55,080 bases of DNA from Candidatus Poribacteria bacterium (GTDB lineage Bacteria; Poribacteria; WGA-4E; WGA-3G): NCBI GenBank assembly GCA_022822085.1, contig JAJECK010000020.1, positions 1-55,080 of the forward strand. The letters are read 5' to 3'. Every line of letters starts with the position of its first letter. Within the stretch, counting starts at the first letter, position 1. The translations under genes and the position numbers were made by a program. The notes beneath the pieces are model-generated. The model saw only the letters and a program-made list of their open reading frames with translations, ran no database searches and was not told the origin of the DNA. Of the stretch, positions 39,379 through 47,396 are shown piece by piece.

Positions 39379-39425
39379 AACGTATAACACGCCTTTTGCA
39401 ACATACAAAAAGCGTGTTATACGTT
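39379..39425. repeat. 47-base hairpin with 14-bp perfect arms
   Basis: AACGTATAACACGC and its exact complement at 39412-39425 enclose a loop in which TTTTG and CAAAA pair again after one mismatch, leaving seven unpaired bases. There is no T-run suited to either flanking operon, so it may be a palindromic repeat element or an operator. Confidence 0.6.
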
Positions 39426-39548: not shown

Positions 39549-39592
39549 TAAAAACCAAGTTGAAATCCAATTTAGAACTGAGTTTCAACTTG
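39549..39592 (-). terminator. Rho-independent terminator of the three-gene operon
   Basis: On the minus strand CAAGTTGAAA and TTTCAACTTG form a 10-bp stem with a 17-base loop, directly followed by GGTTTTTAATAC. It lies 47 bases after the stop of the 164-residue protein. The stem is AT-rich, so the efficiency may be modest. Confidence 0.6.
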
Positions 39593-39638
39593 ATTTATTA
39601 CATTCAATAATTTCGTTCTTATGCAAGCATACCGTAAA

Positions 39639-40133
39639 TCATTTAATTGTCTTTGGTGGTATCCTTAAACCGAGTTTTTCATTAACAAGTTTGACAAGAG
39701 ATTTTCTCATTTGACTAAATGCTCTCTCTGTTCTACCACCACTAATTTCATGAACTATATTTGTCCTTGGCTTCATACATATTAGGGCATGTGCCTTATT
39801 ATTTGGTTTAGGGTCGTGCTTAACGACAATATCATGATCTATTACGTCCATATTTTTATCTTCTATTACTATATCAACCACGTCCCCAACAATTAAACCA
39901 ATAACACCGTCTGTATCACACCCTGACCTCTTAGTTCTTTCTGCGTCGAACTCGTTAATGCTGGCTACATCCGCTGACAGTTTCTCACCTGCACGAAATG
40001 CTGCACTTTGTATTTCTAAAAATCCATTAGGAAGCTCTTTGTAATGATCATCCCGTGATGGATTATTAATATCTATGGCTTTAATCCATCTATATATCTC
40101 TTCGTGCACATCTACAGAGTTACAAGTTTCCAT
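39639..40133 (-). CDS. Unrecognised protein, third gene of a TIGR04255-type operon
   Basis: A 164-residue soluble protein (METCNSVDVHEEIYRWIKAI). A central beta-rich stretch (GVIGLIVGDVVDIVIEDKNM) and a C-terminal helix rich in Lys (FSQMRKSLVKLVNEKLG) are visible, with two Cys (SGCD, ICMKP). I know no family. Its start overlaps the preceding gene by 14 bases, and a terminator follows, so this is the last gene of a tightly coupled operon. Confidence 0.65.
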   Translation of the reverse strand: METCNSVDVHEEIYRWIKAIDINNPSRDDHYKELPNGFLEIQSAAFRAGEKLSADVASINEFDAERTKRSGCDTDGVIGLIVGDVVDIVIEDKNMDVIDHDIVVKHDPKPNNKAHALICMKPRTNIVHEISGGRTERAFSQMRKSLVKLVNEKLGLRIPPKTIK

Positions 40134-40686
40134 TAATTATCCATTCCCATGTTTCTTTATAAATTTCTTTAGTGAGTGTTCCGTCCGATGATATTAATCG
40201 ACCGTCCTGAAACCAAAGTTTTGTAAAATATACACACTTATCTTTAATCTCAAAGTATAAAGACCTGCCATCTCTTTCCCACTTTATGGAGATATAATCA
40301 TCTTCATCTATTTTTATATCTACCATATCTAAACGGTGTATGCCAGTGTCAATATATGATGCAAAATTTTTTATAAAATCTTCCGTATATTGTATATCAT
40401 CAATAGGTGGATTTTCATATTGATATAATATATCAAATTTCGATATCATAGAATCTACAAAAAACGTTTTGTGGTTTTCACTGTTGCTCGCATTAAATAA
40501 ATCAAGCCTTTCTTCAACTAAGTTAAAATCTGATACGGGTCTTACATAAGCATCTTCTGGCATATTTGGATCTAAATTTTCTAAAGTATCGCTTATGGCG
40601 GGACTATTTGTGACGGTTGTTAATAATCCAACTATTGCTGCATAAAACCTTATCTGATAATTATTGGATGCATTTTCTAAGTTCAT
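40120..40686 (-). CDS. Unrecognised protein, middle gene of a TIGR04255-type operon
   Basis: A 188-residue acidic protein starting MNLENASNNYQIRFYAAIVG. The N-terminal hydrophobic segment (about 11-22) might be a buried helix. C-terminal half is beta-rich (YISIKWERDGRSLYFEIKDK, then TKLWFQDGRLISSDGT). No recognised domain. ATG at 40686 has GGAG 8 bases upstream and lies inside the end of the preceding gene; an earlier in-frame start at 40728 is less supported. DNA is conspicuously AT-rich, with many ATA codons. Confidence 0.65.
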   Translation of the reverse strand: MNLENASNNYQIRFYAAIVGLLTTVTNSPAISDTLENLDPNMPEDAYVRPVSDFNLVEERLDLFNASNSENHKTFFVDSMISKFDILYQYENPPIDDIQYTEDFIKNFASYIDTGIHRLDMVDIKIDEDDYISIKWERDGRSLYFEIKDKCVYFTKLWFQDGRLISSDGTLTKEIYKETWEWIINGNL

Positions 40687-41461
40687 CAGTAACACTCCAT
40701 TCAAAAGCATTTTTATAGATATTTTCAAAATCTTCGTAGAGATTGTCTACATCTTTGAGCTCAATGATATTTGCTTCACAAAAGCAATCTATGTCAATAA
40801 TATAGGACGGTTCATTTGTAATCTGTGTTAACCCATATACACCAGACACCGCACCGACTGAATATAATGCATTTACCTTAACATTGTTATCTTGCAGAAG
40901 ATATAATCTATCCATATAAATTAACTCGTCAATTTTCCCATCGTATAATTCTGGGAAAACCGATCGAGATGGAAAAGAGTATATATTTGAAAGATTTAAT
41001 TGAGAATTATTTGTTGTGTATTTATTAGCAATATTGCGGTGCCTAAGTCCGTTTCTGGTAAATTTTGAACATTTATAAATATCTACAAAACTATCCAAAA
41101 CCCTCATTAACCTGTTTTTGAAATCCACATCCTTTTTATAACTCCCTCTATGGTCTAAAGATATGGAATTTCTAGACATAGTTACTCTATAAGGCCTATT
41201 CGGATCAACGGAGGAAAATATAAAGTTATTAAGCAATCCAGGAGCTTCGCCAAGATCTTGCTTAATAATACCCTGCACCGCATTCGATCCTCTTACATCT
41301 ACATTGAAATTAGGGTACCCCTGATCCCGCATTGCAGACTGAAACCGTGTTGGTATGCCAGTAACGATATCTAAAATATCATGGAACCTCGCTTCAAATA
41401 TTATCTCAAAAGACAAACTTTTACGATATTCTTGCTTTTGATGATTTCCAAAAAATTTCAT
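40661..41461 (-). CDS. TIGR04255-like protein
   Basis: A 266-residue protein that I match, from memory, to the sporadically distributed TIGR04255 family. Supporting pattern: an N-terminal strand (SLSFEIIFEARFHDILDIVT), DLGEAPGLLNNFIFSSVDPN and VTMSRNSISLDHRGSYKKDV, mid LRHRNIAN, and the family-like ending FENIYKNAFEWSVTDELRKC. The function of the family is unknown; it tends to occur in variable, mobile-associated DNA. ATG at 41461 has AGGAA 8 bases upstream. First gene of a three-gene overlapping operon close to a nuclease-methyltransferase. Confidence 0.65.
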   Translation of the reverse strand: MKFFGNHQKQEYRKSLSFEIIFEARFHDILDIVTGIPTRFQSAMRDQGYPNFNVDVRGSNAVQGIIKQDLGEAPGLLNNFIFSSVDPNRPYRVTMSRNSISLDHRGSYKKDVDFKNRLMRVLDSFVDIYKCSKFTRNGLRHRNIANKYTTNNSQLNLSNIYSFPSRSVFPELYDGKIDELIYMDRLYLLQDNNVKVNALYSVGAVSGVYGLTQITNEPSYIIDIDCFCEANIIELKDVDNLYEDFENIYKNAFEWSVTDELRKCIQ

Positions 41462-42016
41462 TTTCAAATTTCCTATTGTTTTTTATACCATTCATTCGAG
41501 TCTCACCACCTCTATAAATTAAAATGAGGCAACTATACGAATATCAATAGTATACCATAATAACAAAATCAGAATCAAATCTTTTTTCATTTACAAAAAA
41601 ATCAACTTAATTTATGTCCAAAACTACTAATTGCGCTGTTTTTATATTTCTCACCTGCATTGAGGAACAAGGTTTACCTCTTGCTGTAGATGTTTTTTGA
41701 TAAGTTTTGCGTTGTCGTCTTTGCATTTGTCTGGTTTTGCGATTTTCAGAGGTGCCTGGTTTTGTTTGATTCACCGTTTTGTTTTATACTGATATTATAC
41801 CTGGTTCTATGTGTAAACAGAAGTTTTTGTGGTTTGCCGGACAATAGATATTCAATATATTCACAATAAGTTTACTGGAAAGTTGGGATTGACGTGTTTT
41901 TTTGGAGGGTATCTCGGATGCGCGCGTATTTTGTTTTCAGCGGGGCAGTTGACACAGGTTTTTGAAGTTGTGGTAAGGGAAGTAATTACTGGAGAATTGA
42001 ATGGTTCTGGAGGTTT
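41462..42016. other. Gene-free stretch, no clear features
   Basis: AT-rich from 41462 to about 41650, then less so. Promoter elements for the TIGR04255 operon should be here but are not distinct. A plus-strand frame at 41829-42185 starts here and overlaps the end of the methyltransferase antisense; it has no protein character. The stretch 41650-42000 may contain decayed coding DNA, but I could not identify a source. Confidence 0.5.
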
Positions 42017-45000
42017 TCAACGCTTAAGTTTTTCCCATTCCTTTTCAAGATTACACTTAGATTTTTTCCCACCGTGGATACTCGGTTCGGCACACAACAA
42101 TTCTCGGAGGCGGTGGACAGCATTGTGTGCATCTTCAGTTGTGATGTCTAATACTTCATTCAGTAAACGACGATCAAGTTCGTGACGGACTGGATCGTGA
42201 TCTGATTCATTGAAGGGTAACATGCGCTTATGTTTCAAGTCGTGGAAGATACGTTCTGCGTTTGCCAATGCTTTATCTGATAAGCATCTTACATCCAATG
42301 TAGGCATTTGGAGTAACATCTTGCGCGCACTCATCCCTCTACCCGGCTGCTGTTTTCCACTATGTGCCCAGTGTAACATAAGTCCTAATATTGAATTACC
42401 CCAAAGTGTCCAGGCATAGTCATACTCACGACTTCTATCCTTAAAAGCAATATTAGGCATCAAGGCAACACCAATTGCTGGTTTCTTAGTGAATAGAACA
42501 CCGAGGGAGTTTGCGTTAAATCCCATATTAAGATTGAAATGTACGCGTCCATTTCGTTCGAGAATTTTTTGTGCTTTTTCGTGACGATTGGGACGAGGAA
42601 TGAGATGACAATCGGGTTTAACAACCATTGTCCTTTGGGCAGGTGCGTTAACATGCCACAACCCTGGATATAGATCGCTGTCTGCACAACCTTTTTCAAC
42701 GTCAAATGCGCCACGTTCACTCTTTTCATAAATATCCCTATGTGTTGCTCCAATCTCAGCAATATCAGTTACATTACATATTGGGATCTTTAACGGATCT
42801 ACTTGTGTAGGTAGCCACATTTCACCGCTTGCTAAACGATACACAGATTGGACCAATGCCATCTCCTTGATACGGACAGCGTCCCACGCTTTGCTAATCC
42901 ATAATGGACAATTGAGGGCATATCCGAGTAAATCGTCTCCGACTTTAATTGGATCACCACCACTCGGTTCATCTTCTAACCGACGAATGCTATCATGTCC
43001 ATGAATAGTATTTGCTACTACACTTGCTTCTAACACACTCCGAGGACGATGGTTTAGGGATATAAATGTACCGCGTCCTGTCCTGTCATTTGTCTTGCCC
43101 TTGGTTGCAACTACTATGCACTCTGCCATGGTTGTATCTGCAGAAAAGGCGCAGCTTTCACCCTTTGCATCCGCGATGGTAAGGACAACCACGTCGTGGT
43201 ATTCAGTTGCCCACATATTCCGTACTTTCTGCCAGTCAGTAGCCGATAGACAAGTAATAGGTAAAATAAAACCCATTTTACTTTTTCCATTTTCCTTTAG
43301 CATCTTGTCTGCAAGGTCAACGAAGTCGGAAGCTAGTCCTGCATTGCCATCGCCGACTCGCCATTTTTTTCTCTTGCGTGCTTGGCGCATCTTCTGTTCT
43401 TCTTCTTTACTTCTGTTGCTTCCTTTGAATACGGCTTTTGGCATATTAGTATTTGGATCGGAATCTGGTCTGGTAAAAGGTGGATTTAACACAACTATAT
43501 CAAATTCTTTGTGATAAAATTCCTTTTGTGGGAGAACTTTCGCGTCGTCCTCTCCGCCAACTTGTCGAAATTCTGTGCCCATCATCGGTAGTGGAAACGC
43601 ACCTTCAGGACCATCAAACAGATCAAGTGAACCGAGAGCATAAACCCCATCTATTTGTTTTCCGTAAGGCATTGTATATATGCGTGTATTACCGATTTTC
43701 AGGTCAGGATAGGTACTTGTTAGAAGTGAGGCGGTTAAGTGGCTTGCATTTGGCATAATGTCACATCCGACGAGTTGTTGCTCAACCATCTGTGTATGAA
43801 TTTGGCTGCCTTTACCACCTGCTTGTTCGTGTAGTTCAAGGATACGTTGATATGCTCCGTATAGAAGTGAACCTGTCCCACAGGCAAAATCTGCCACCTT
43901 CAATTCACGGACATTTTCTTGAGTTTTCGGCAAAACCATGGCGGACAATAGGGAAACGGATTCAGGCCGTGTATAGTTTGCAGCGATGTATTTTCTATCA
44001 ACAATAAGTCGTTGAAAGACGGTACCTGCTAGTTCGTGTACTTGTGTGAGTCTTTGGTCAACCAATTCTTTTGCAGCGCGACAAAGTGTTGCTAATACTC
44101 TATCAATCAGTTCGTCGTCGGTAGCTATTGCTTCTATGAGTCGTTTTGCGACATAGAATATTGGACGATAGTTTACCTTGAGAATGATGTTCCATCCAGC
44201 AATTACGTGATCGTAGCGGAGTCGTTTTGCGTTGTCTGACAGCATCCTTTTGAGAGATACGACACCCTTCATTTCGGGTTTACCAGCAAGTGCACTTTGG
44301 AATACAAAAGCGTTGGTGATAATAAGCATTGCCATTCGTGAAGTTTGTTCGCCAGATTTTTGAAAGAGAATCTCCTCAATTTCTTCTCCGATCCCTGGGC
44401 GTTCTGAAATTGCATTTTCAAGATGCTTTGCTGCAATTTCAATTCGTGCCTCTAACAAATCGGCGGCAGCATTTATTTTTGAGATGGGAGTTGCCCCGAC
44501 GTGAATAGCAGTAGCGATGTCAGAAACCCTCCCTTTTAACCACCCTTTTTTGGGGAAATGTTCGTATCCTGCTGGTTTATCATTTCCTTGGTCTCCAGTT
44601 TCATAGGTGTATAAATCTGATTCAGCTTCTGGCTCGTTTTCTGTTTGTAGTTTGTTTATCAGCATGTAGGCAATGTCTTCAGCCGTTTGCATTTCAGATT
44701 CGATATTTCCTTGTGGCATTGTTTTGAATCGGGCAGGCATCCGGACTCTTAGGACATTTTCAACTGTATCGTAAGTCAGATCTGAAAAAACGCTGGGATC
44801 GAGCAGCATTCCAAAATGTGCTTCTGCTTGTGTCATACCTGAAAGATTTGGTGTCTTTCCATCGATTTTTACTTCAATGACGACAGGGTTTCGTCCTGTT
44901 TCGGTGACAATGACATCAGGTCTCTGTGTAGCATTGAGAAACGGCTTCGTGATTTGTTCATCGACACGCCATGCTTCTCTCATCGGGCGTAGGACGTTTA

Positions 45001-45037
45001 CAAAGGCACTGGTAATGGTGTTTTCACTGTTTGCCAT
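42017..45037 (-). CDS. Nuclease-methyltransferase (N6-adenine, type IIG-like)
   Basis: A 1006-residue protein that joins functions usually in separate restriction-modification subunits. Near the N-terminus is a PD-(D/E)xK-like nuclease pattern (Pro40-Asp41, then Glu55-Val-Lys57). A helical region leads to the methyltransferase with S-adenosylmethionine motif ADFACGTGSLLYGAY (about 384) and catalytic NPPF (about 519). Further motifs: MGFILPITCLSATDWQKVRN. The C-terminal part would recognise DNA. Organisation resembles type IIG enzymes. No specificity or helicase gene is adjacent, so it probably works alone or with the neighbouring operon. No clear ribosome binding site. Confidence 0.83.
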   Translation of the reverse strand: MANSENTITSAFVNVLRPMREAWRVDEQITKPFLNATQRPDVIVTETGRNPVVIEVKIDGKTPNLSGMTQAEAHFGMLLDPSVFSDLTYDTVENVLRVRMPARFKTMPQGNIESEMQTAEDIAYMLINKLQTENEPEAESDLYTYETGDQGNDKPAGYEHFPKKGWLKGRVSDIATAIHVGATPISKINAAADLLEARIEIAAKHLENAISERPGIGEEIEEILFQKSGEQTSRMAMLIITNAFVFQSALAGKPEMKGVVSLKRMLSDNAKRLRYDHVIAGWNIILKVNYRPIFYVAKRLIEAIATDDELIDRVLATLCRAAKELVDQRLTQVHELAGTVFQRLIVDRKYIAANYTRPESVSLLSAMVLPKTQENVRELKVADFACGTGSLLYGAYQRILELHEQAGGKGSQIHTQMVEQQLVGCDIMPNASHLTASLLTSTYPDLKIGNTRIYTMPYGKQIDGVYALGSLDLFDGPEGAFPLPMMGTEFRQVGGEDDAKVLPQKEFYHKEFDIVVLNPPFTRPDSDPNTNMPKAVFKGSNRSKEEEQKMRQARKRKKWRVGDGNAGLASDFVDLADKMLKENGKSKMGFILPITCLSATDWQKVRNMWATEYHDVVVLTIADAKGESCAFSADTTMAECIVVATKGKTNDRTGRGTFISLNHRPRSVLEASVVANTIHGHDSIRRLEDEPSGGDPIKVGDDLLGYALNCPLWISKAWDAVRIKEMALVQSVYRLASGEMWLPTQVDPLKIPICNVTDIAEIGATHRDIYEKSERGAFDVEKGCADSDLYPGLWHVNAPAQRTMVVKPDCHLIPRPNRHEKAQKILERNGRVHFNLNMGFNANSLGVLFTKKPAIGVALMPNIAFKDRSREYDYAWTLWGNSILGLMLHWAHSGKQQPGRGMSARKMLLQMPTLDVRCLSDKALANAERIFHDLKHKRMLPFNESDHDPVRHELDRRLLNEVLDITTEDAHNAVHRLRELLCAEPSIHGGKKSKCNLEKEWEKLKR

Positions 45038-46118: not shown

Positions 46119-46380
46119 TTATGAGAAGAATCGCTTGTAATCATCGTGATGCCCTATCCAGAACCATGTAACTGTATCACCTTTTAAGATTCCAATGCAC
46201 GGCAACCTTGAGTGATGCGCACAGACCAAATATCTTCTTTGGCATTGATACATTTGAAACGCAAAGAATTATGAAACGGATTAGAAATCCATACCGATAG
46301 GCCTTTTTAGCTTGATTTCTGAGCGCGCTATCAAGTTTCCGATAAGCTGACCAAAAAGAAGGTAATGTCGCAGATTTCAT
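46119..46380 (-). pseudogene. RelE/ParE-type toxin with two frameshifts
   Basis: Frame 1 gives MKSATLPSFWSAYRKLDSAL up to KKAYR; the family-typical continuation WISNPFHNSLRFKCINAKED to TQGCRAL is in another frame, and the end (GILKGDTVTWFWIGHHDDYK, RFFS, TAA) in a third. Two single-base deletions restore the full toxin: one at CGG-TATGG (expected CGG-CTATGG), one at TTGGAATC (expected TTGGGAATC). The last strand is what the other toxin, 4551-4820, lost to a stop codon. The ATG overlaps the antitoxin stop (ATGA). Two separate lesions make sequencing error less likely, but not excluded. Confidence 0.82.
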
Positions 46381-46571
46381 AACTGATCCAAGTCCATTGG
46401 CTCAGATTTTCCTTCAGCAATTTCCTGTTTAGCACGGCGGGCAGCGGCAATAAGTTGATCCTGCGTCCTGTTAAAAGTAGTTTCCCATTGAAGTTCGTCT
46501 TCTAATTCAGCAATATACTCGCGTGGATGTTCCACAATCTGATTTTGCAATGCTTTAAGCGGTGATTTCAT
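46377..46571 (-). CDS. Antitoxin, related to the one at 4817-5035
   Basis: A 64-residue acidic protein (MKSPLKALQNQIVEHPREYI to SEPMDLDQL) overlapping the toxin gene by 4 bases. The core ELQWETTFNRTQDQLIAAAR matches ERKWDKTFAESQDLLAKLAE in the first pair. It remains open although its toxin is broken, as in the first pair. It may be retained because it represses its own promoter or can neutralise related toxins elsewhere, or merely decays more slowly. Confidence 0.78.
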   Translation of the reverse strand: MKSPLKALQNQIVEHPREYIAELEDELQWETTFNRTQDQLIAAARRAKQEIAEGKSEPMDLDQL

Positions 46572-46598: not shown

Positions 46599-47396
46599 CT
46601 ACAAGTCTTGCTTTGCATGATAACCGTGTTCTATGAGCGCAGTAGATACAGATGTCCAGACAGCGCGTGCTTGTTCAACTGCCTCAGCTGCATCTGTGTT
46701 CGTGGCTTCTTGCATGTTTTCTGGATAGCGTGCCTCAACTGCCCAACGGGTTAGATTCGACAGGTCTGGACACGCGGCTTTGAGTTGCCAACTTTCAGGT
46801 ACCATGTCCCGCAGATCATTTAAGTTATGTGTTCTGTGAAAATCGATCTGTAAGAAAATTAATGCTGTTTTTAAAGCCTTTTCTGCAGCCTGTTGCGCGT
46901 GCCAACAGCATTGACGAGGCGGTACGTGTGGATGATTTAAAAGTGTTTCAGCGGTTACCAAATCTTCCTCAGCATAGCGTAACCATCGGGCGGTATCTGC
47001 GAGTCGATCTGCTGTTTGCATATCAGATTTTACCTCCTTGTCGTGCATGCCACAGGAGCGATTTGATTCGTGTGTGGCTGTGTTCCAACTTTTCCAAATG
47101 ACTTTACCTTCCTGTTGGGCATAGCGCAGCACCGAACCGATCCGTGTGCGGTGACGTTCAAGTTCTTCAGGTGTTGAGACAAGGATGTCCTTCGGCACGG
47201 GTATGTCGGAGAGATTACGCATAATATCAATTGCAGTTTTCCGTTTATCAGAGAGTTCTGGAAAAACTACAAGAAGATCTATGTCACTATATCTATCTGC
47301 ATCCCCTCTTGCTTGCGAACCGAAGAGAATAATCTGCAAAGGGTCATATTCTTGTACGATGCGCTCTGTCATCATTGAAATAAAATCGTTATTCAT
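46599..47396 (-). CDS. MNT nucleotidyltransferase-HEPN fusion
   Basis: A 265-residue protein. Residues 1-105 are a minimal nucleotidyltransferase with the signature GS-x10-D-x-D (Gly26-Ser27, Asp38, Asp40). A linker of about 20 residues follows, then a HEPN domain (126-265; CCWHAQQAAEKALKTALIFL; DFHRTHNLNDLRDM). These are normally two genes of the MntA/HepT type VII toxin-antitoxin pair: HEPN ribonuclease and AMP-transferring antitoxin. An ATG at 47021 is in frame at residue 126 and has AAGGAGG 10 bases upstream, so the HEPN half might also be made as a separate protein. The full-length start also has GAGGAG. Confidence 0.86.
   Translation of the reverse strand: MNNDFISMMTERIVQEYDPLQIILFGSQARGDADRYSDIDLLVVFPELSDKRKTAIDIMRNLSDIPVPKDILVSTPEELERHRTRIGSVLRYAQQEGKVIWKSWNTATHESNRSCGMHDKEVKSDMQTADRLADTARWLRYAEEDLVTAETLLNHPHVPPRQCCWHAQQAAEKALKTALIFLQIDFHRTHNLNDLRDMVPESWQLKAACPDLSNLTRWAVEARYPENMQEATNTDAAEAVEQARAVWTSVSTALIEHGYHAKQDL

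Follow-up and report, generated by a model that had tools for sequence, protein, structure and literature searches.

A TIGR04255-headed operon of Candidatus Poribacteria as a probable member of a family of three-gene toxin-antitoxin-like cassettes

The stretch of DNA analysed here, 55,080 nucleotides from a Candidatus Poribacteria genome and hereafter called the window, carries on its minus strand a compact operon of three genes (A, B and C), the first of which encodes a protein of the TIGR04255 family. On balance we favour the view that this operon belongs to a large family of toxin-antitoxin-like cassettes made up of three parts, with TIGR04255 at the head, in which C would be the toxin, B an antitoxin or adaptor, and A a stabiliser; the family is apparently widespread and previously undescribed. 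The case is built on sequence comparison and comprises a tight A-B-C gene order, third genes that vary between loci and include known toxin families, a chimeric locus, the joint gain or loss of A and of an extension of B, and B-C pairs that are stably kept without A. By analogy with characterised systems, these patterns would fit a toxic C, its neutralisation by B, a chaperone or sensor role for A and an anti-phage purpose for the whole. NCBIfam lists TIGR04255 as a "sporadically distributed" family of unknown function, and we found no mention of it in the 5.39 million papers searched; as the head of interchangeable toxin-antitoxin-like cassettes, it would gain a role.

The operon and its surroundings

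The original prediction, made from the nucleotide sequence of the window, had described three overlapping genes with their own terminator in DNA more AT-rich than its surroundings, and had proposed an acquired system, perhaps directed against phages. The features of the operon and its nearest upstream neighbour are as follows.

40661..41461, minus strand: gene A (266 aa), which opens the operon; TIGR04255 family by NCBIfam match
40120..40686, minus strand: gene B (188 aa), a proposed antitoxin/adaptor; B proteins from other loci are homologous to its C-terminal part
39639..40133, minus strand: gene C, proposed toxin-like effector, 164 aa; homologues lie nearly always directly after B
39552..39596, minus strand: terminator-like hairpin and U tract 3' of gene C; -18.1 kcal/mol, z -4.95
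41549..41578, minus strand: weak promoter-like site 5' of gene A; TTGATT-18-TATACT with TG, from a consensus scan alone
42017..45037, minus strand: N6/Eco57I-type DNA methyltransferase (type IIG-like), 1006 aa; Pfam N6_Mtase 2.6e-6, Eco57I 3.4e-6

Read in the order A, B, C from 41461 to 39639, the genes do overlap, by 26 nt (A/B) and 14 nt (B/C), and an earlier ATG at 40710 is a possible alternative start for B. The hairpin and U tract after C bear out the predicted terminator, and the difference in composition is real: the operon has a GC content of 33.6%, whereas the window averages 41.5% (sd 3.1), and it ranks in the lowest 2% of segments of its size. Between the operon and the next gene, at 39381-39423, lies a perfect 20-bp hairpin followed by TTTAATTAAT.

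HMM searches were run with all three proteins. Protein A, which had been said to resemble TIGR04255, is a true member of that family, scoring 78.9 bits against a curated cut-off of 30, with residues 19-263 aligned to positions 9-249 of the 252-position model. B and C have no match in Pfam, NCBIfam, PADLOC or PHROG, in agreement with the earlier statement that the partners resemble nothing known; because neither matches a housekeeping family, the reading of the operon as an undescribed system survives this comparison. None of the three proteins matches Panacea (DUF4065) in Pfam, A matches no SecB profile in Pfam or NCBIfam, and searches of PDB sequences with profiles of A, B, C and the HicA-like and QGDI families described below returned nothing significant. 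The AlphaFold model of A (pTM 0.76) consists of duplicated beta-alpha halves. Its fold matches to AdoMetDC, TBP and phosphagen kinases/McsB (best Z 8.3) are borderline and reflect likeness at the level of a common arrangement, and none was adopted; SecB is absent among the fold matches listed.

Three neighbours had also been named. The methyltransferase part of the proposed nuclease-methyltransferase is present, with N6_Mtase and Eco57I domains, 555 bp upstream of A on the same strand; it lies outside the operon and is possibly a functional neighbour of it. Genes for MNT (nucleotidyltransferase) and HEPN domains are normally two separate genes; here Pfam places both domains in a single fused gene (46599-47396, minus strand), about 5 kb upstream of A, as the prediction had it. 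The supposed toxin pair fared less well: two small overlapping ORFs of 64 aa (antitoxin-like) and 67 aa do exist at 46177-46571 on the minus strand, but neither has a Pfam match and the second looks like a short or frameshifted toxin.

TIGR04255 genes head a discrete three-gene unit

TIGR04255 genes occur in 54 of 289 genomes, spread over 37 of 218 genera, and 80 regions of 4-19 kb were examined with a simple ORF-based gene caller, whose start sites are approximate. Among complete A genes with room downstream, 59 of 62 have a same-strand neighbour within 60 nt downstream, compared with 129 of 312 control genes (other genes of similar size from the same regions). Two such neighbours in a row follow A in 50 of 62 cases against 44 of 312 in the background (Fisher p 1e-24), so that the three-gene order recurs in other genomes far beyond chance; loci from one order are not independent of each other, and outside the order of the host the same arrangement is found in 31 of 40 A loci (p 3e-16). 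A third tight downstream neighbour is present at only 12 of 62 A genes (15 of 312 controls), and a tight upstream gene at 6 of 62. A thus starts a discrete unit of three genes. In 42 of 43 loci this unit has a higher AT content than the DNA on either side of it (mean difference in GC -7.9 points), and this holds for hosts from 31% to 71% GC. Furthermore, the A protein of a Methylococcales locus (L189) is 56% identical to that of a poribacterial locus (L186), to which the A of the window is only 32% identical, indicating that the operon moves between phyla.

Variable third genes

Sorted by sequence, the third genes fall into classes whose names are our own: the window type and its relatives (class I), an 'LSVNWLEF' type (class II), a 'QGDI...SQSCDL' type (class III), and HEPN, HicA-like, PIN and zeta types. 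Several of the last four are known toxins. The third gene is a HEPN gene in some loci (Pfam, 4e-8) and a PIN gene in others (Pfam, 9e-15 and 5e-9), and on a Vibrio parahaemolyticus plasmid it encodes a zeta toxin (3e-12); the HicA-like match (3e-5, 24.5 bits) is just under the Pfam cut-off of 27. At the PIN and HicA-like loci, the middle gene stands in the position expected of an antitoxin. Class III genes (L157 96-632, L136 3832-4374, L235 550-1071 and others) share the pattern 'QGDI...SQSCDL...RLLPPYREHLSQAFARFFMRVGLP' without a Pfam match, and are a candidate new toxin family.

The B-C pair

With C as query, homologues were found in 27 of 98 related genomes, and a profile search recovered them in 30 of 289 genomes, all within the order of the host. 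A genome-wide scan, for which the profile was built from a closer set of C because the alignment of all C is too diverse, returned named relatives that are almost all Candidatus Poribacteria MAGs, in keeping with a poribacterial host, and added whole A-B-C operons in a Methylococcales MAG (L189) and a Betaproteobacteria MAG (L193). In the viral collection, C had no match and A matched two contigs.

At nearly every locus B directly precedes and overlaps C, so that the pair has the form of a type II toxin-antitoxin module: two small, overlapping, co-oriented genes that are inherited together. Recognised toxin or antitoxin domains are absent from B and C of the window and present in other effector classes of the TIGR04255 operon. 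Profile comparisons link the window B stepwise to B of other class I loci (1e-15, 2e-8 and 1e-11); they link C to its close relatives at 4e-22 and, weakly, to class II C and to PDC-M32B (about 1e-3 to 4e-4). Among distant relatives of C, only an AF pair and a C-terminal H (in an H.I pattern) are invariant, and R, V and I are nearly so. The predicted structure of C is poor (pLDDT 56), and its top match, the tRNA 2'-phosphotransferase Tpt1 (Z 4.3), is too weak a lead for an ADP-ribosyltransferase-like fold to be accepted.

Only about one poribacterial locus in three has an A gene before B, and at least five genomes that are 92-97% complete (G005, G006, G025, G043 and G061) keep B-C with no TIGR04255 gene. 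If C is toxic, B alone, in its short form, thus seems to suffice to tame it. The genome of the window itself holds two tandem B-C copies without A (L111 8605-10460, contig C40), with other B-C copies on contig C117 and a decayed one on C18. At five other loci (L133, L139, L140, L144 and L146), an A-B-C operon has additional B-C pairs or lone B genes next to it, with no A of their own, which gives the impression of a row of spare pairs.

Effector exchange and the division of B

On a tree of 66 A proteins, ten effector labels require at least 15 changes, where the minimum is 9 and the mean after shuffling is 42; effector classes therefore cluster on the tree but do switch. One switch can be followed within a single operon. 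The A proteins of L160 (class III) and L161 (class II) are sisters (support 99/89; 65% identical), and B of L161 is a chimera: residues 1-92 resemble class III B (4e-8), and residues 90-227 resemble class II B (35-39% identical, down to 2e-30). The C protein of L161 shares 57% identity with class II C and does not match class III C. The overlap in this operon is only 4 nt. The break inside B indicates that the N-terminal half of B is passed on together with A and the C-terminal half together with C, and B is best read as an adaptor with one side for A and one for C. A second swap is likely at L193, where a window-type B-C stands behind an A of another lineage.

The conserved, C-associated part of the window B, homologous to B of other loci, covers about residues 76-185, and we propose that the part N-terminal to it is an extension that docks onto A. 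In Poribacteria, B has a median length of 282 aa next to A and of 140 aa without A (Mann-Whitney 4e-6; in one A-less locus, L096, B is broken by an N gap). On the tree of C, the presence of A changes at least seven times. The independent pairs that can be drawn across supported branches are few (6-7): A and a long B go together in five to six of six, with the opposite pattern in none, and when any tight upstream gene is counted, B length agrees in seven of seven (sign test p about 0.016).

At three loci (L121 7622-8284, L125 9941-10615 and L126 7948-8586), a different gene of about 215 aa occupies the place of A before a long B-C; hhalign does not support its homology to TIGR04255. An N-terminal 'SSGVLP' motif shared by B of several Poribacteria and the Rhizobium partner was considered as a docking motif and rejected, since it is the +1-frame reading of the conserved FEWSITD segment of A, with which B has long overlaps; the chimera was used as evidence instead. 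The reading frame of A runs over the first ~35 residues of B in Poribacteria, so that likeness among B starts is partly imposed by dual coding.

Comparison with known systems

The window operon qualifies as a TIGR04255 operon but, judged by their defining features, not as a TAC, PanAT or PDC-M32 system. We nevertheless consider it likely, by analogy, that it works like TAC. In TAC systems, the antitoxin carries an extension, absent from antitoxins that need no chaperone, to which a SecB-like chaperone binds; when the chaperone is missing, this extension makes the antitoxin unstable, and a chaperone and its extension can be transplanted together to toxin-antitoxin pairs of other families (PMC5105189). 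In CmdTAC, a phage capsid protein draws the chaperone away and thereby frees an ADP-ribosyltransferase toxin (PMC11618068). The TIGR04255 operons resemble TAC in having three genes, with variable putative toxin and antitoxin families and a common third component, and in having a putative antitoxin with an extension that is missing from two-gene relatives, with A-extension pairs that move between effector types. The extension co-varies with the third component as in TAC, but it is N-terminal here and C-terminal in TAC; moreover, A comes first in the operon and is not SecB-like by sequence, and window-class C lacks a known toxin domain.

The promiscuity of A recalls PanAT, in which Panacea (DUF4065) acts as a hyperpromiscuous antitoxin, one domain serving dozens of toxins (PMC8832971). 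In both systems one conserved protein accompanies many unrelated toxin domains, on phages and chromosomes; however, PanAT has two genes rather than three, and in the TIGR04255 cassette it is a class-specific middle protein, not the common one, that appears to face the toxin.

The catalogue entry nearest to the window operon is PDC-M32, a functionally uncharacterised PADLOC candidate seen in Sinorhizobium prophages (PMC12429752). Matches come from relatives of B, to the C-terminal third of PDC-M32A (best 5.6e-7), and weakly from relatives of C, to PDC-M32B (0.006), and both systems contain an adjacent gene pair and occur in RM loci and prophages; B and C of the window themselves gave no score up to E 1 with the two models. 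In place of A, PDC-M32A has an unrelated 250-residue N-terminal domain. This domain also occurs as a separate gene directly before a PIN-like toxin (L195 1486-2610; L196, L197 and L198; three genomes) and so may be a promiscuous first component as well.

The anticodon nuclease PrrC, which is encoded within a type I RM locus (PMC12707154), offers a parallel for a candidate toxin inside an hsd operon. It has no sequence relation to the TIGR04255 cassettes, which, unlike it, comprise three genes and several unrelated effectors.

Genomic context and alternative functions

In four poribacterial loci (L139, L140, L143 and L145), hsdS and hsdM flank a class I cassette, and the PDC-M32 relative of L195 is likewise found between hsdM and hsdS. 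Other cassettes follow or lie near DNA methyltransferases (the window, L136, L225 and L226), of Eco57I type and upstream in the window and L136. On phage contigs, a class I cassette is found among tail genes (L229) and a class II cassette beside Zot (L228); a Rhizobium cassette (L032) adjoins a multiubiquitin-ThiF-DUF6527 cluster, and a Panacea gene adjoins the operon of L193. The expectation that such operons would recur beside defence genes is thus upheld in part: nesting in RM loci is recurrent, but the enrichment in PADLOC matches is modest and not significant, with three type I methylases and three specificity subunits among 120 near the loci and about one RM gene among 120 in control stretches, numbers too few for significance to be claimed. 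Taken with cross-phylum conservation, the AT-rich composition of 42/43 units, plasmid and phage carriage and the lack of any literature mention found, the RM nesting supports the original proposal of an acquired, previously undescribed conflict system.

The reading to which the data point first is a toxin-antitoxin-like module whose third component is promiscuous, and the cassette is probably a bacterial toxin-antitoxin or anti-phage switch. In such a module C would be a toxin-like effector and B its cognate antitoxin, binding C through its conserved C-terminal half and docking onto A through its N-terminal extension; A, a promiscuous stabiliser or sensor, would stabilise B or hold the complex inactive in healthy cells. 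A trigger, for example infection or RM inhibition, would remove A, whereupon B would fail and C would be freed. The hsdS-hsdM nesting, the corresponding position of the PDC-M32 relative, the upstream Eco57I-type methyltransferases and the PrrC precedent (PMC12707154) would also suit an A that watches the adjacent RM system or a phage protein and switches C on instead of stabilising an antitoxin, as the trigger-sensing activator of a PrrC- or PARIS-like abortive-infection module guarding RM. We consider this improbable, as many loci have no adjoining RM genes, the cassette is a unit used with many unrelated effectors, and B-C persists without A.

Carriage on plasmids and phages, the AT-rich, alien composition and the tandem and decayed B-C copies would be expected of plain selfish addiction, that is, a toxin-antitoxin module of three parts that persists on mobile DNA for its own sake and plays no part in defence; against this rather doubtful reading stand the recurrent nesting in RM loci and the distant kinship of B-C with PDC-M32. 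An anti-phage role is suggested by that nesting together with phage-contig carriage and the weak PDC-M32 kinship, and a defence role is plausible on these grounds, yet we place the chance that the cassette serves anti-phage defence rather than plain addiction a little below even. It is also unlikely that B-C is a two-subunit enzyme or binding complex of some other function with TIGR04255 as a general assembly factor: window-class C does lack a toxin-like domain, and many species stably keep a B-C pair at one conserved locus, but the same first gene and layout are used with HEPN, PIN, HicA and zeta toxins, and the distribution is patchy and the composition AT-rich.

Implications and further loci

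A broader, tentative reading, to which we give distinctly less than even credence, is that TIGR04255 defines a large undescribed tripartite class of conflict systems, in which a promiscuous sensor or stabiliser has repeatedly captured unrelated toxins by exchange of the C-terminal half of the adaptor-antitoxin, for anti-phage defence and RM guarding; the captured toxins would include HEPN, PIN, HicA, zeta and several new ones such as C. Should the adaptor model hold, the logic of chaperone addiction would have evolved more than once. Candidate toxin families newly pointed to are the C superfamily (invariant AF and H), the 'SVNWLEF' type and the 'QGDI...SQSCDL' type, and the chimera of L161, by showing where B can be divided, opens the adaptor model to testing with few constructs.

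Further TIGR04255 operons have middle and third genes of no known type (L230 57-2262 and L226 4983-6813). The cassette on Rhizobium plasmid NZ_CP104160.1 (L032 6001-8174) consists of TIGR04255 and two hypothetical genes, the third without a Pfam match. On plasmid pTB1 of Thermus brockianus, an unannotated HEPN-like gene (L225 6303-6695), missing from the PLSDB gene table, completes a TIGR04255 operon.
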